DNA from: an uncultured Methanobacteriaceae archaeon
Lineage (GTDB): Archaea > Methanobacteriota > Methanobacteria > Methanobacteriales > Methanobacteriaceae
Length of the DNA stretch: 64,000 bases
Assembly (NCBI GenBank): GCA_902782945.1
Contig: CACZOU010000026.1
Coordinates: forward strand, 1-64,000
Reading direction: 5' to 3'
Shown piece after piece: positions 17,425 to 26,774 of this stretch. The translations under genes were made by a program, and so were the position numbers. The notes beneath the pieces are model-generated. The model was not told the DNA's origin and searched no databases. It was given only the letters and a program-made list of their open reading frames with translations. Every line of letters starts with the position of its first letter. The stretch's first letter is position 1.

Positions 17425-19740
17425 TTAATATGATTCATTTTTGAGATTATTATCAAACTCTTTAAACTGATTAGCCAATCCTCTAAAGTATGGAATAAAT
17501 ACACTGTGAATTAACAATCGGTTAGGATTAATACCATCCTCTTCTAATTGTTTCTTCATGATATTCACGTTTTTTCTAATCTCATTATGTTTAGAAGTAT
17601 CAGGATACTCTCCTAGGAATACTCCATCAGCACCATGAGTTAAAGCATATTTAACATGTCTATACTTTACACGGTTGATGAATGGAACATTGATAATACG
17701 TACAGAGTCAGGACAAGTAACTCTGTTAATACCCATATTGTTTGCTGAAACATTACCAATATCATCCAGGAATGCTATGATTATTTGTTCATCATCACGT
17801 TTATCTTTCAACATTCCACGAATACTTGCCTCTAATTTATCATCACTCTGTCCCTGTATACTAATAGCTTCCTGTGGACATGTGAGTATACAATCACCAC
17901 ATCCAGTACAGGAGATAGGATCTACATGGATAGACTGCCTGCTAAGTGTAATCGCCTGATAAATACAATTATCCACACAGGTACCACATAGGATACAGTT
18001 TTTAACATTAACTGTAGCAATAAATGGTTCAACCTCTAAACCACCATTAACTAACTCGGAAATCTTAGTTGCAGCTGCATTAGCTTGAATAATACTATCA
18101 GTAATATCTTTTGGTCCCTGAGCTGTACCACATACGAAAATACCTTCAATATCTGTTGTAACAGGTTTCATCTTAGGATGTTTTTCTTTGATGAAATTAT
18201 CCTCTGTTCTTGGAACATTCAATGTATTTGAAACTTCAATAGTTCCAGCACTAGCTTCAAGTGCAGCTGATAACACTACCAGGTCTGTTGGAATCTCTTC
18301 CCTAATACCGGTTAGTGTATCTTCTATCCTTACTATCATATGGTCATCTTCCTGTGCAATTTCTCCAGGACGTCCACGAATAAGCTCTACACCATTATCT
18401 TGAACATACTTGTAATATTTCTCATAAACACCTACGGTACGGATATCAGTGTAGCATATGATAACCTCTGTATCAGGGTAATGTGTACGGATAAGATTAG
18501 CATTTTTAAGAGCAACCATACAGCATACCTTGGAGCAGTATTTATTACCACCTGGAAGCTGGTCTCTTGAACCAACACATTGTATCATTACAACACGTCT
18601 TGGCACCTTACCTGTTGAGGGTACAAGTAATTTTCCATGAGTAGGACCATTAACACCCATAATACGTGCTAATTCCATTTGACTAATTACATCATCATAT
18701 AATTCATGACCATACTCTGGTCTTTTACTTGTATCAAAACGTTGATGTCCAGTTGCTATTACAACAGATCCTACTGTTAGTGATATGATATCATCAATAG
18801 CATCTAAGTTTATTGCATCTGTTGGACATACCTTTGTACATGCTCCACATTTTATACAGTGTTCATCATCGAGTGTGTATGTACTTGGAACTGCCTGCGG
18901 AAATGGCTTATATATTGCTTTACGATTAATTAATCCTTCATTCCACTCATCTGGTGTGATTACAGGACATGCCTCGGTACATCGGCCGCATCCAGTACAC
19001 TTGTTTGGATCAACATATTTAGGTTTTTTTCTTAGGATTACATCAAAGTTACCTGCTCTTCTTTCAGAACGTTCTAGTTTAGTGTTAGTTAGTAATTGAA
19101 TGTTCTTATTATGTACCATCTCGTTTATAACTGGATTTAACAGACAAGCGGCACAGTCCTCTGTTAATTTTTCTGGCGAGAATACTTTACCTACCTGTAC
19201 CATTGCTCCGCCTACTGCAGGTTTTTGTTCTATTAATGTTACTTTCATTCCCTGTTTTGCTAGGGATATTGCTGTTGTTATACCAGATATACCTGCTCCT
19301 ATTACCAGTACCTTATTTTTTACCTGTGTTGGTATTTTCTGTAGTGGTTCATCATATTTTACTGATTCTATTCCTGAGTTAATTAGAGATATTGCCTTTA
19401 CTGTTGCTTTTTCAGGGTTTTCTGTTACCCATGAGCATTGTTCTCTTATATTTGGCATCTCATATAAGTATGGATTTAATGGTTTTATGTAGTTCTGGAA
19501 TGTTTCTCCATGTGTTACCTTTGAACATGCTGAAATTACTACTCTATCTAATCCTTCTCTTAGGATTTGGTCTTTTATTATTTTTCTTCCTTCTAATGAG
19601 CATAGATTTTGATGGTGTTTTATGGATACTACTTCATCATTTTTAGATAATTCTTCCTCTATTTTATCCATATCTAATACATCAGATATGTTTCCACCAC
19701 AGTGACAGAGAAATACTCCTATTTTATGTTTTTCAGTCAT
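17425..19740 (-). CDS. hdrA: Heterodisulfide reductase subunit A fused to a degenerate MvhD-like domain
   Basis: HdrA carries the electron-bifurcating FAD of the heterodisulfide reductase complex. This 771-residue version has the N-terminal iron-sulfur domain (GVFLCHCGGN), a Rossmann FAD site (VIGAGISGITTAISLAKQG), the DCAACLLNP cluster motif, two ferredoxin motifs around CTGCGRCTEACP and CIKCGACTKVCP, KYCSKVCCM, and a second C-terminal ferredoxin pair. Residues about 650-771 resemble MvhD, the hydrogenase delta subunit, as in Methanosarcina HdrA2-type fusions. All cysteines that normally hold the MvhD [2Fe-2S] cluster are replaced. Start 19740 is chosen for its GGAGG; it overlaps the hdrB stop by 8 nt. 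Confidence 0.85.
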   Translation of the reverse strand: MTEKHKIGVFLCHCGGNISDVLDMDKIEEELSKNDEVVSIKHHQNLCSLEGRKIIKDQILREGLDRVVISACSKVTHGETFQNYIKPLNPYLYEMPNIREQCSWVTENPEKATVKAISLINSGIESVKYDEPLQKIPTQVKNKVLVIGAGISGITTAISLAKQGMKVTLIEQKPAVGGAMVQVGKVFSPEKLTEDCAACLLNPVINEMVHNKNIQLLTNTKLERSERRAGNFDVILRKKPKYVDPNKCTGCGRCTEACPVITPDEWNEGLINRKAIYKPFPQAVPSTYTLDDEHCIKCGACTKVCPTDAINLDAIDDIISLTVGSVVIATGHQRFDTSKRPEYGHELYDDVISQMELARIMGVNGPTHGKLLVPSTGKVPRRVVMIQCVGSRDQLPGGNKYCSKVCCMVALKNANLIRTHYPDTEVIICYTDIRTVGVYEKYYKYVQDNGVELIRGRPGEIAQEDDHMIVRIEDTLTGIREEIPTDLVVLSAALEASAGTIEVSNTLNVPRTEDNFIKEKHPKMKPVTTDIEGIFVCGTAQGPKDITDSIIQANAAATKISELVNGGLEVEPFIATVNVKNCILCGTCVDNCIYQAITLSRQSIHVDPISCTGCGDCILTCPQEAISIQGQSDDKLEASIRGMLKDKRDDEQIIIAFLDDIGNVSANNMGINRVTCPDSVRIINVPFINRVKYRHVKYALTHGADGVFLGEYPDTSKHNEIRKNVNIMKKQLEEDGINPNRLLIHSVFIPYFRGLANQFKEFDNNLKNESY

Positions 19741-20710
19741 GTATTTTATCCTCCCTGTCATCATACTCTATGCCTAGTTTATCTAGTAATGGTTCTACTC
19801 TTATTGTATGAGTTTGTATTCCCAGTACTTTATATGGGTCTGCTCCCATGTATAATGCTACTAGTTGTGCTATGTTTAATACTGCCATGTGTTTTTTATG
19901 ATTTGTCTGGTTTTGTATTACTTTTTCATATCTGTCGAATTGTAGGTGGCAGTTTGGACACATTACTATTAATAAGTCCACATCTTCATTGTATAGACTT
20001 TCAAATTTATCTGTTGATACTTCTAGTGATAAATCCCTATTAGCATATCTCTGTCTGAATCCACATCCGCATGTGAGTTTTTTATGGTCATACCATCCTA
20101 TTGTTGGTGCACCTATTGCTTCACATATTTTATCTAAGAGTTCTGGGTCTCTTACTCCTTCTAATGTGTCATGGTAGTGTACCTTGCAGTAGTGGCATCC
20201 GTGGTGTGTTGCTATTTTTATTCCGGATAGATCTACTTTTTTATATTTTGATAGTTCGTCTCTGTGAGCATATAGTATTTCTGCTGCGTGTGTTATATCA
20301 TTTACGGGGTCTATATCTCCTTTATGATATTGTAAGTCTTCTAATCCATTTTCTCGGAATGATTTGTTGATTTCCTCTCTTACATCATCTTTTTCGTTTA
20401 GTATTACTGCTGCATTCTTTAATATTGCATAGCATGTTGCACACATTGGTACGTAGTGTTTGTGATTGTTTTTGATTGCGTGACTGAAGTTTCTTGCTGC
20501 TAATGCTGTTGTTGATAATTCATCAAATATATCATAATAATGTCCTAGTCCTGTACAACATGACTGATTACGGTCTATTACGTATTCTATTCCTAATTTA
20601 TCAAATATATATTTTGTTGAGGCTTCTATACCTGGATATTCTGCAGATACTAGACAACTTCTAAATAGGGTGATGTCTTTATCAGGTATAAATTTGTTCA
20701 ATTCTTCCAC
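19733..20710 (-). CDS. hdrB: Heterodisulfide reductase subunit B, second CCG motif altered
   Basis: HdrB holds two noncubane [4Fe-4S] clusters that cleave the CoM-S-S-CoB disulfide in methanogens. In this 325-residue protein the first CCG motif is intact (C19, C51-C52, C90, C93: RSCL, SCCTGLG, CATC). In the second, Cys172 and the terminal CPNC (251-254) are present, but the middle element reads LTCGCGF in place of CCG, so one of the paired cysteines is displaced. It starts at GTG 20710, 8 nt after GGAGG. It lies between hdrC and hdrA with tight spacing, so the three form one operon. The altered site suggests a diverged substrate or cluster. Confidence 0.85.
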   Translation of the reverse strand: MEELNKFIPDKDITLFRSCLVSAEYPGIEASTKYIFDKLGIEYVIDRNQSCCTGLGHYYDIFDELSTTALAARNFSHAIKNNHKHYVPMCATCYAILKNAAVILNEKDDVREEINKSFRENGLEDLQYHKGDIDPVNDITHAAEILYAHRDELSKYKKVDLSGIKIATHHGCHYCKVHYHDTLEGVRDPELLDKICEAIGAPTIGWYDHKKLTCGCGFRQRYANRDLSLEVSTDKFESLYNEDVDLLIVMCPNCHLQFDRYEKVIQNQTNHKKHMAVLNIAQLVALYMGADPYKVLGIQTHTIRVEPLLDKLGIEYDDREDKIHD

Positions 20711-20729: not shown

Positions 20730-21338
20730 TTATTTCTTTTCCACGTCTTTAATTTCCTGGGTACGTTTTGTGAATCCTATAGCTTTTAGTGTTTGTCCTA
20801 TTTCTTCCTCTGCTTCTGGTAATAAATACATGCTTTCTAATCCTAAATCATCACGTACTTCTTCTAAATGATCTTGTAATCTATTCCAGTGATTTCCATA
20901 GTCTTTTGATAGTTGTCCATGATATTCTTTAGGTATTATTCCCAGTCCTTTTTCAATGTAGCTATCTGCAAAGCTTATGAATGAGTTTACTTCTTTTTTT
21001 CCGTTATCTTGTTCTATTGCCATTTGTCTTAGTATTTGATTTATTTCGCATACACTGTTTCCTACTGGACAGATACTGTGACAATTATAGCAGTAGAAGC
21101 ATTTCCATATTTCTTTATCTTCAAGGATTGTTTTATCATTATCTAGCACTCTTTTTGTTACTTCTCTTGGGTCATAGTCTGAGTGTCTTGCTGCCGGGCA
21201 TGTTGATGCACACATTCCACATTGTACACATCTTAGTAATCCTAAGTCTTTTGAGGCTTTTATGTCTTTTAGTACCTGGTGTGCTAAATCATTTTCGTCT
21301 CCTTGTTTTTTCATTTCTCGTCTTCTAACTTTTGTCAA
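20730..21338 (-). CDS. hdrC: Heterodisulfide reductase subunit C
   Basis: This is the electron-transfer subunit that links HdrA to HdrB. The roughly 202-residue protein has two complete [4Fe-4S] motifs, CVQCGMCASTCPAA and CFYCYNCHSICPVG, followed by a helical C-terminal region. The start is uncertain: TTG at 21338 fits AGGTG best, whereas GTG 21347 and ATG 21314 are also in frame. It is the first gene of the hdrC-hdrB-hdrA unit, 19 bases before hdrB. No hydrogenase or formate dehydrogenase genes are adjacent, so the electron donor of this complex is not shown by context. Confidence 0.88.
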   Translation of the reverse strand: MTKVRRREMKKQGDENDLAHQVLKDIKASKDLGLLRCVQCGMCASTCPAARHSDYDPREVTKRVLDNDKTILEDKEIWKCFYCYNCHSICPVGNSVCEINQILRQMAIEQDNGKKEVNSFISFADSYIEKGLGIIPKEYHGQLSKDYGNHWNRLQDHLEEVRDDLGLESMYLLPEAEEEIGQTLKAIGFTKRTQEIKDVEKK

Positions 21339-21525
21339 AGCTAACACCTATTATAAATAAAATTTTATGTAATTATTTTCATTCATTTTTACTTAATGTA
21401 TCATTATTTTCTTGATAATTTATTATTTATTTCATTAACAATAATAAATTTAGTATATATCTTTTATCAATTAATAGATTAATTTAACAACGTTATATAT
21501 TTTATTAAAAAAATAAGAAAAAGGA

Positions 21526-24040: not shown

Positions 24041-26365
24041 TTAAAATATTGGATCTTTTACAATTCCTATTCTAAATGAGTTAAGGATAACCAACAAGGT
24101 TAGTCCGAGATCTCCTATACCTACAGCCATCATTAATGTAATTAATCCTAATATTGCAAGTATTACAAATAAGAATTTTACAGATAAAGCTGTAACTATA
24201 TTCTGTTTAATAATATTATCCGTTTTGATACTTAATTTAAATAAATATGGTAATTTTGTTAAATCATCCTGCATTAAAGCAACATCCGCAGTTTCTATTG
24301 CAACGTCAGATCCTGCTGCACCCATAGCTACTCCTATATTAGATCTTGCTAGTGCTGGTGCATCATTAATACCGTCACCAACCATTGCAACATCACCAAA
24401 TTTATTTCTGATTGTGTCAAGTATATTTAATTTATCTTCTGGTAATAAGTCTGAGTAAATGTAATCTATGTTGATTTCTTCACCTACTGCTTTTGCTGCT
24501 ATGCTGTTATCACCTGTTAGCATAACTGTTTTTATACCAGATTGTTTGAGATTTTCTATTACTTCTTTCGTTTCATCTCTAATTTTATCGGTTACTGTTA
24601 ATATACCTATTACTCCTACTTTGTCTCCTACAAATACTACTGTTTCTCCTTTATTTGCATATTTTACAACAGTATCGTATGGTATATCAAAGTCACTTTC
24701 TTCTATTAGACATTCATTTGCTGCGTAGTATTGTTTGTCTCCGATATATCCCACAATACCTTTACCTGGTACATTTTTAAAGTTATCAATTTCTTCTAAG
24801 GATATATTTTTTTCTTCAGCGTAATTAGTTATTGCTTTACCTATAGGGTGACTTGCTTTTGTTTCAAGTGAAGCAGCAATTTTTATCATGTCTTCTTCAG
24901 AGTAGTTATCATTTATCATTTCTATGTTGTTAAGTTTTAATTTACCCTCAGTGAGTGTTCCTGTTTTATCAAAGATAACTGCTTTTATTTTACGCATTTC
25001 TTCTACGTAGCTACTTCCTTTGATAAGTACTCCTTTTCTAGTTGCTGAGGTTATTGCTGATACCATTCCTATTGGTGTTGATATTAGGAATGCACATGGA
25101 CATGATATTACCATTAATGATAATGCCCTGTATACCCAGTTTACTAGGTCTCCTCCAAAGAATAGTGGTGGTATGAATGCTACACATGCTGTGATTACTA
25201 CAATTACTGGTGTGTAGTATTTTGCTATTTTTTCTACGAGTGTCTCTGTATGTGATCTGTTTAATTGAGATCTTTTTACTAATGTTACAATTTTTGATAT
25301 AACACTATCTTTGGATTCTTTTGTAACCTGTACTTCTATATAACCATCCTGGTTTACTGTACCTGCATATACTATGTCATCTACAGCTTTATTTACTGGT
25401 ACACTTTCACCAGTGATTGATGCCTGGTCTATTGATGATGTTCCTGCAATAACTGTACCGTCTAATGGTACTTTATCTCCAGGTCTTACTACTACAGTAT
25501 CATTTATATGTACTTCTTCAATAGGTTTTATTTCTTCAGCACCATTTATTTTTACTCTTGCAGTTTCTGGTGCTATTTCTACTAATGATTTGATTGAATG
25601 CTGTGCCCTTTGTTCTGAGTAATCCTCAAGGAATTCTGATAGGAAGTATAATAATGTTACTGCGGCACCTTCTTCTGGATGTCCTATTAGGAAAGAAGCT
25701 ACTGCTGCTATACACATTAATACTGCTGGTGATATATTGTGACGTTTTAATGCATTTTTAGCCATGATTGCAATGTCATAACCAGATATTACTGCACCTA
25801 ATCCAAATACTAATGTTGCTGGTATTCCATTATATACTGAGAAGTAATTTAGTATATGACCTATAACAAATAGTATACCGCTTGATACAATAATTTGTAT
25901 AGATCTGTTCTGAATTAATGGTACACCTTCTTTTATTACTTCTTCTTCATCGTCATCATCATCACAACAATCATCACAGTTGCATATTTTTATATCATCG
26001 TCATCACAGCAATCGCAGTTATCTTCATGATGGTCATGTTCGTGATGGTGATGATGTTCGTGTTCATGTTCGTGATGGTGATGATGTTCATCGTCGTTAC
26101 AATCATCACATGTACACATTTTCACATCAACATCTTCCATATCTTCGATTTTTTCAGTATTGTGTTGATATACACTGAAATCTGTGTGTTCTTGGAAGTC
26201 TTTTAGTAATTTTTTATTATAATGCTGATGATTCATACAGTGAGTGTTTTCACAGTTAGGATCCATACATATATAGTTAAAGTGTTCAGGGTTAAAACAC
26301 TCTTTTTTATCACAGGATGGATCATAACACCTATTTTGTTCAACATTTTTATGAACTTCTGCCAT
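24041..26365 (-). CDS. P1B-type zinc/cadmium-exporting ATPase with a Cys/His-rich N-terminal tail
   Basis: This 774-residue pump exports heavy-metal ions across the cell membrane using ATP. The core is complete: ITGES actuator motif (about 318-321), SCPC in a membrane helix (421-424), the phosphorylated DKTGT (466-470), SHPIGKAI, and GDGINDAPALA. The last membrane segment has DLGLTLLVILNSFRI, whose Asp is characteristic of the Zn/Cd/Pb subgroup. The usual ferredoxin-like HMA domain is absent. Instead residues 13-50 contain two 20-residue copies of C-x-D-P-x-C-x4-C, and residues 84-134 a His/Asp/Cys-rich tract. It lies 22 bases after its likely repressor on the same strand. Confidence 0.92.
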   Translation of the reverse strand: MAEVHKNVEQNRCYDPSCDKKECFNPEHFNYICMDPNCENTHCMNHQHYNKKLLKDFQEHTDFSVYQHNTEKIEDMEDVDVKMCTCDDCNDDEHHHHHEHEHEHHHHHEHDHHEDNCDCCDDDDIKICNCDDCCDDDDDEEEVIKEGVPLIQNRSIQIIVSSGILFVIGHILNYFSVYNGIPATLVFGLGAVISGYDIAIMAKNALKRHNISPAVLMCIAAVASFLIGHPEEGAAVTLLYFLSEFLEDYSEQRAQHSIKSLVEIAPETARVKINGAEEIKPIEEVHINDTVVVRPGDKVPLDGTVIAGTSSIDQASITGESVPVNKAVDDIVYAGTVNQDGYIEVQVTKESKDSVISKIVTLVKRSQLNRSHTETLVEKIAKYYTPVIVVITACVAFIPPLFFGGDLVNWVYRALSLMVISCPCAFLISTPIGMVSAITSATRKGVLIKGSSYVEEMRKIKAVIFDKTGTLTEGKLKLNNIEMINDNYSEEDMIKIAASLETKASHPIGKAITNYAEEKNISLEEIDNFKNVPGKGIVGYIGDKQYYAANECLIEESDFDIPYDTVVKYANKGETVVFVGDKVGVIGILTVTDKIRDETKEVIENLKQSGIKTVMLTGDNSIAAKAVGEEINIDYIYSDLLPEDKLNILDTIRNKFGDVAMVGDGINDAPALARSNIGVAMGAAGSDVAIETADVALMQDDLTKLPYLFKLSIKTDNIIKQNIVTALSVKFLFVILAILGLITLMMAVGIGDLGLTLLVILNSFRIGIVKDPIF

Positions 26366-26387
26366 ATATTTCCACCTTATATAAGTT

Positions 26388-26762
26388 TTATTCTAATACG
26401 TGTTCGATTCCTATTTTAAGTATTTCGGTTACGTGTCTATCTGCTAAAGAGTATCTTGCTTGTTTTCCTTCTTTAACAAATTTTACTAAGTTTTTACTTC
26501 TTAGTGTTCTTAATTGATGTGATACTGCTGATTGACTCATATCTAATGCTTCTGAAATATCACATACACATAAGTCTTCAACAGCTAACAAGGATAATAT
26601 TTTTAGTCTTGTTGGATTTCCGAAGATTTTAAACGTATCGGATAATTCCATGTATGCCTCTTCGTTTAATAAATTCTCTTTTGCTCTTTTTATTGGTTCT
26701 TGATGTAACACTGGTATGCTGCACATGTCATCTCCGACATTGTATAATTTATCTTCTTTCAT
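26388..26762 (-). CDS. SmtB/ArsR-family metal-sensing repressor
   Basis: This 124-residue winged-helix repressor should release DNA when it binds zinc, cadmium or a similar ion. The DNA-binding helix is SQSAVSHQLRTLRSKNLV. Both classical metal sites are visible: DLCVCD (Cys65, Cys67) as in the CadC-type alpha-3N site, with Cys14 available in the N-terminal arm, and a perfect alpha-5 site Asp108-x-His110-x10-His121-x2-Glu124 as in SmtB. ATG 26762 is preferred to GTG 26771 because AAGTGA lies between them. A perfect inverted repeat lies just upstream (26775-26798). It is the first gene of the operon with the metal pump. Confidence 0.92.
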   Translation of the reverse strand: MKEDKLYNVGDDMCSIPVLHQEPIKRAKENLLNEEAYMELSDTFKIFGNPTRLKILSLLAVEDLCVCDISEALDMSQSAVSHQLRTLRSKNLVKFVKEGKQARYSLADRHVTEILKIGIEHVLE

Positions 26763-26774
26763 TTGAATCACTTT

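Follow-up and report, generated by a model that had tools for sequence, protein, structure and literature searches.

A Cys-less MvhD-fold domain that is real, ancient and maintained was found at the C-terminus of an HdrA protein encoded in a 64,000-nucleotide stretch of DNA from an uncultured Methanobacteriaceae archaeon, hereafter the window. It is very probably a non-redox structural domain, and the reading preferred here, to which a probability of about 0.5 is assigned, is that of an HdrA1B1C1-type complex in which the MvhD domain would act as a structural dock, with the electrons of the complex going to coenzyme M synthesis.

The hdrA gene is the last one of an hdrC-hdrB-hdrA operon on the reverse strand (-) of the window, on which all the genes, domains and motifs of this operon located below are encoded. 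It corresponds to an ORF of 779 aa (17425..19764), with a likely real start at the ATG in position 19740, and its product matched the NCBIfam family NF041891 (hdrA_Methbact) over positions 2-760 of 762 with 1214 bits (equivalog cut-off, 1300), while it reached 768 bits against a cut-off of 1100 for NF040770 (HdrA2, type Ia). The partner genes were hdrB (19733..20710; NF041780, 523 bits, cut-off 450), whose product shared only 32% identity with the genome's canonical HdrB, and hdrC (20730..21347; NF041890, 266 bits, just below the cut-off of 270). Upstream of the operon lies cysS, and a UvrD-like helicase gene is found downstream. Since the genome has its own canonical HdrA elsewhere (652 aa), canonical HdrB/HdrC and an mvhD adjoining a hydrogenase small-subunit-like gene, the window operon represents a second Hdr set, the canonical HdrABC-MvhAGD set being encoded separately (C19, C8 and C2). 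Both sets have in common the HdrA core, the FAD and Fe-S motifs and the HdrB/HdrC architecture, and the C-terminal 2x[4Fe-4S] ferredoxin motifs of the window HdrA are intact (17890..17997; profile match and alignment). In contrast, the canonical HdrA is tail-less and keeps the glutamate E356 that is treated below. Furthermore, two other clusters were observed: a His-rich and Cys-rich heavy-metal P-type ATPase is encoded at 24041-26771 of the window, with an ArsR-type regulator adjoining on the same strand, and at a separate locus (L069, G000:C18) a Cys-bearing MvhD is clustered with an FdhB-like protein and with a short FdhA-like protein of 350 aa, recalling the catalytically dead molybdopterin-protein/FdhB/MvhD F420 modules (PMC12054007).

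The first-pass annotation had proposed that the C-terminal region of this HdrA is homologous to MvhD and that the cysteines of its three cluster elements are gone, and both proposals were borne out. The domain (residues 662-775; 17440..17781) was delimited from profile and fold matches, alignments and dN/dS. It matched the Pfam family FlpD/MvhD (PF02662) with an E-value of 4.2e-22 (78.9 bits, gathering cut-off 22.3), and the AlphaFold model of the domain alone (pLDDT 88.8) keeps the MvhD fold, its best PDB match being the solved MvhD 5odc_D (E 9e-10, TM 0.74/0.78, rmsd 2.0 Å); the model of the full-length HdrA was weak (pLDDT 77, pTM 0.62, 12 sequences). In the alignment with the two genuine MvhD that the genome encodes, FLDDIG (17755..17772) takes the place of the ligand motif FCCNWC, VPFINR (17671..17688) that of VMCSGR, and GEYPDTSK (17590..17613) that of GGCHxGDC; with their flanking residues, FCCNWCCY reads FLDDIGNV and GGCHMGDCHY reads GEYPDTSKH. 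Moreover, every ligand Cys of the window domain was replaced in the alignment of HdrA fusions with MvhD, which rules out displaced cysteines, and the sole Cys of the domain region, C684, occupies a non-ligand position and is restricted to the window's genus. Thus, the fold and the sequence landmarks are those of the stand-alone MvhD/VhuD/FlpD proteins, but the window domain is fused to HdrA and has lost all the cluster ligands: by its descent and fold it qualifies as a homologue of MvhD, but not as a functional MvhD electron carrier.

A search for fused HdrA was performed in 139 genomes of the family and 152 of the phylum, and 108 genomes presented it, all of them belonging to the window's family, Methanobacteriaceae. 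The ligand cysteines were lost in 50 out of 50 fused family proteins examined, so this loss is a fixed family trait and not the peculiarity of one genome, and the Cys-less domain has its own clade-specific conserved residues (FLD, GYTAADNIG, NR and GE(Y/F)P). The dN/dS of the MvhD-like domain was 0.087 in the window's genus, compared to 0.079 for the HdrA core, and 0.047 in g9/g10, compared to 0.024. As to the role of the cluster-less domain, for which a structural dock or the acceptance of another electron donor had been suggested earlier, the former fits the purifying selection and the intact fold, while the latter is not directly supported, because a cluster cannot sit there without its ligands.

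For comparison, Methanosarcinales genomes were reached via a Methanosarcinales 16S probe, while a search with a published primer for the M. acetivorans hdrA locus gave no match. Two kinds of fused HdrA were found in this order. The first one, HdrA2 (type Ia, as in M. acetivorans HdrA2B2C2), likewise carries a C-terminal MvhD fusion, but its MvhD cysteines are intact and its gene adjoins a polyferredoxin gene; an Fe2S2 cluster and the use of F420H2 have been reported for it (PMC5296606). The second one, HdrA1 of Methanosarcina (MA3126-3128 type), matched NF041778 with 1525 bits (cut-off 1400) and is encoded in an hdrA-hdrC-hdrB operon. Although HdrA1 has been described in a review as having no MvhD extension (PMC6019823), its Cys-less tail was matched by PF02662 with an E-value of 3e-15.

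A tree of the HdrA core was built without the MvhD-like domain, leaving out an unrelated antisense ORF (L150_nofus) as distorting. All the Cys-less HdrA fell on one side of a branch, with a support of 99/98 when ANME-2 sequences were included, and without them the window HdrA grouped with Methanosarcina HdrA1 (100/99). The Cys-less clade was sister to the Cys-bearing HdrA2 (100/99). By parsimony, and with a small sample outside Methanobacteriota, these sequences would require one fusion and one cluster loss. In addition to the clade, Methanosarcina HdrA1 and the window HdrA (~41% identity) have in common an architecture of 760-805 aa with a Cys-less MvhD-fold tail, the loss of E356 and a CC to TC change in HdrB. 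They differ in the gene order (hdrC-hdrB-hdrA in the window), and in Methanobrevibacter-like genera, unlike Methanosarcina HdrA1, the genes are part of a coenzyme M gene cluster. The window protein was also considered as an HdrA2-type F420H2-dependent enzyme, an assignment that was rejected given the absence of the ligand cysteines and its position outside the HdrA2 clade. Two ANME-2 loci (L158 and L159) encode a Cys-less fused HdrA retaining E356 and adjoining an HdrB whose CC motif is intact; these HdrA may have branched off early or be partly different in kind. Another locus (L053, G135:C4) encodes a divergent paralogue of the Cys-less HdrA; in its HdrB, the second CCG motif retains CC and the first one has damaged cysteines, the reverse of the main clade.

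Further redox changes were found in the HdrA core and in HdrB. In M. thermolithotrophicus HdrA, E356 positions K409 at the flavin N5 (PMC12054007). The equivalent of E356 is A366 in the window protein (18667..18669; alignment), and Ala or Gly appeared at this position in 19 out of 19 Cys-less rows outside ANME-2, while Glu was kept in HdrA2 (13/13), non-fused (7/7) and ANME-2 rows (2/2). As K409 is kept in the window HdrA (K420) next to the A366 substitution, the joint presence of both residues, which is a sequence proxy only for bifurcation, was not found, and the core Fe-S cysteines and the flavin-contacting Lys are all kept across the clade. Moreover, the alignments showed two gained cysteines, C437 (18454..18456), found only in the Cys-less clade with ANME-2 excepted, and C545 (18130..18132), gained in the clade with one exception and located beside a conserved GTAQ stretch. 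In HdrB, the second CCG motif is LTCGCGFRQR (20048..20077; alignment), where the canonical CC reads TC. The first Cys of CC was lost in 28 of the 29 family proteins, with TC as the rule, and the same type of change occurred in both Methanosarcina HdrB1 examined; in addition, the family HdrB proteins gain a Cys in HHxCHYC. From these residues we infer that the E356, Cys and HdrB changes may bear on bifurcation and on the substrate.

The genes hdrCBA were located at ≤12 kb from the coenzyme M synthase gene mmp16 in 66 of the 108 genomes with fused HdrA, representing five Methanobacteriaceae genera, with the com annotations checked against NCBIfam (ComA, TIGR03849; MMP16, TIGR03287; ComD, TIGR03845; ComE, TIGR03846). 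In g3, g6, g9 and g10, comA and mmp16 are followed by hdrCBA in the tight order comA-mmp16-hdrC-hdrB-hdrA, with comE/comD and COG2122 in the vicinity, these five genes being almost contiguous at L048, and in g5 hdrCBA is near mmp16 in another arrangement. Other arrangements with com genes nearby appeared at L050 and L057 and in G011, and within the genus of the window hdrCBA is not linked to the com genes. At a further locus (L059, G055:C30, 2209-14148), mmp16-hdrC-hdrB-hdrA occurs twice in tandem, with a DUF169 gene in between.

The occurrence of fused HdrA and comA was compared in 78 high-quality family genomes. Both were present in 68 genomes and both absent in seven, while three had comA without fused HdrA and none had fused HdrA without comA (Fisher 4.5e-8, uncorrected for kinship). 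The association with comA/mmp16 is strong among the Methanobrevibacter-like genera, and across the family it holds in one direction. Thus, seven out of the ten good genomes without fused HdrA were also without comA, mmp16, COG2122 and the partner HdrB, and these seven retained canonical HdrA and HdrB. The co-losses span three genera only, and where the genes cluster, one deletion could take all of them. M. ruminantium requires coenzyme M and is without MMP16 (PMC12068725). On the other hand, 13 genomes of the Methanothermobacter-like families f2-f4 had comA without fused HdrA (mmp16 in 12 of them), as did G133 and G138, and the Methanolobus and Methanothrix genomes had MMP16 with HdrA2 only; hence, coenzyme M synthesis does not in general require the complex. 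A COG2122/UPF0280-like protein (NF003321) is encoded at L048:219-932 and by homologues of this gene; it was missing in exactly the seven genomes without coenzyme M genes and present in 11 out of 11 others tested, a pattern that makes it a candidate coenzyme M biosynthesis gene.

A literature search, excluding supplementary files and most subscription journals, found no paper describing the Cys-less domain or using gene order to connect this Hdr complex with the synthesis of coenzyme M. In M. acetivorans, MMP16 acts as the main coenzyme M synthase; which sulfur species and how many electrons its step uses is unclear, and the phenotype of ΔMMP16 is masked by sulfide, with hdrABC transcripts up (PMC12068725). 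Sulfide, or coenzyme M together with acetate, partially rescued the ΔhdrA1B1C1 mutant of M. acetivorans, which presented raised cs/comDE and 34% lower CoM-SH; the authors interpreted these results as slowed heterodisulfide reduction, and not as an effect on coenzyme M synthesis (PMC9963511, PMC12713407). The genomic linkage and the co-loss offer an alternative reading of this phenotype.

According to a rival explanation, the complex would be a methanogenic CoM-S-S-CoB reductase working with ferredoxin (or with ferredoxin and F420), along the lines proposed for HdrA1B1C1 of M. acetivorans; the MvhD domain would then be left over as a structural piece, and the com linkage would stem from a shared regulation of the coenzyme M thiol pool. 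This explanation is rather unlikely, even if it agrees with the NCBIfam family name (ferredoxin:CoB-CoM heterodisulfide reductase), with the proposal of F420 plus heterodisulfide reduction with ferredoxin (PMC6019823) and with the methylotrophic character of the hdrABC phenotype. The genomes without coenzyme M genes must still form CoM-S-S-CoB, and a methanogenic heterodisulfide-reducing complex is not expected to vanish in those strains, yet this one was lost while canonical HdrA and HdrB were kept. Moreover, the loss of the bifurcation-associated Glu and the altered second CCG site of HdrB argue against it. The identical pattern of comA co-loss and the requirement of ComA for sulfite would also be explained by an oxidative, sHdr-like complex making sulfite for ComA (or for cysteate synthase) in coenzyme M synthesis, and Hdr-like complexes that oxidize sulfane sulfur exist. 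However, the G055 duplication comprises mmp16-hdrCBA and no second comA, and no lipoate-binding sHdr partner appeared among the neighbour genes examined, making this possibility improbable.

The remaining alternatives concern the domain itself. It might bind a non-Fe-S group or a substrate such as F420 and still pass electrons, which would be in line with its new clade-specific conserved residues and with the use of F420H2 by HdrA2B2C2 without a recognizable F420 site (PMC12054007). Nevertheless, the fold search gave only MvhD at E < 0.001 and no cofactor-binding family was matched within the domain, so this explanation is given slightly less credit than that of sulfite production. Finally, plain decay, with a non-functional tail being lost, is hardly credible: all the ligand cysteines are gone, but the dN/dS of the domain (0.05-0.09, similar to the core value) refutes it, and the domain is kept not only in the family proteins examined (50/50) but also in Methanosarcina HdrA1.

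The MvhD-fold tail lost its [2Fe-2S] ligands in what parsimony makes a single ancient event, and it has been held under strong purifying selection. In the preferred reading of a structural dock within a complex serving coenzyme M synthesis, electrons would no longer enter via the MvhD domain from hydrogenase or formate dehydrogenase, which would leave the domain as a structural or docking piece. The donor may instead be reduced ferredoxin or something similar, entering at the ferredoxin clusters of HdrA, and the electron path would run linearly from HdrA to HdrC and HdrB, probably without bifurcation. The gene linkage and the co-loss suggest that the complex serves coenzyme M biosynthesis, where its most likely role would be that of reductant in the last step, from sulfoacetaldehyde to coenzyme M, carried out by the COG1900 protein MMP16/ComF; the molecule reduced by HdrB is a guess. 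More specifically, HdrA1B1C1 may be the electron-delivering or persulfide-reducing partner of MMP16, and not primarily a methanogenic heterodisulfide reductase, in which case the dead MvhD domain would serve it for docking and the C-terminal site of HdrB would have been adapted to another sulfur substrate, a proposal that is tentative and rated somewhat below even odds.

Overall, the view of HdrA1 as lacking an MvhD domain is corrected, and a hit to the FlpD profile alone is an unsafe basis for assigning electron transfer to a 'type Ia' HdrA. Furthermore, the gene order, the co-loss and the clade-wide redox changes join the electron donor of MMP16 and the role of HdrA1B1C1 into a single testable claim.
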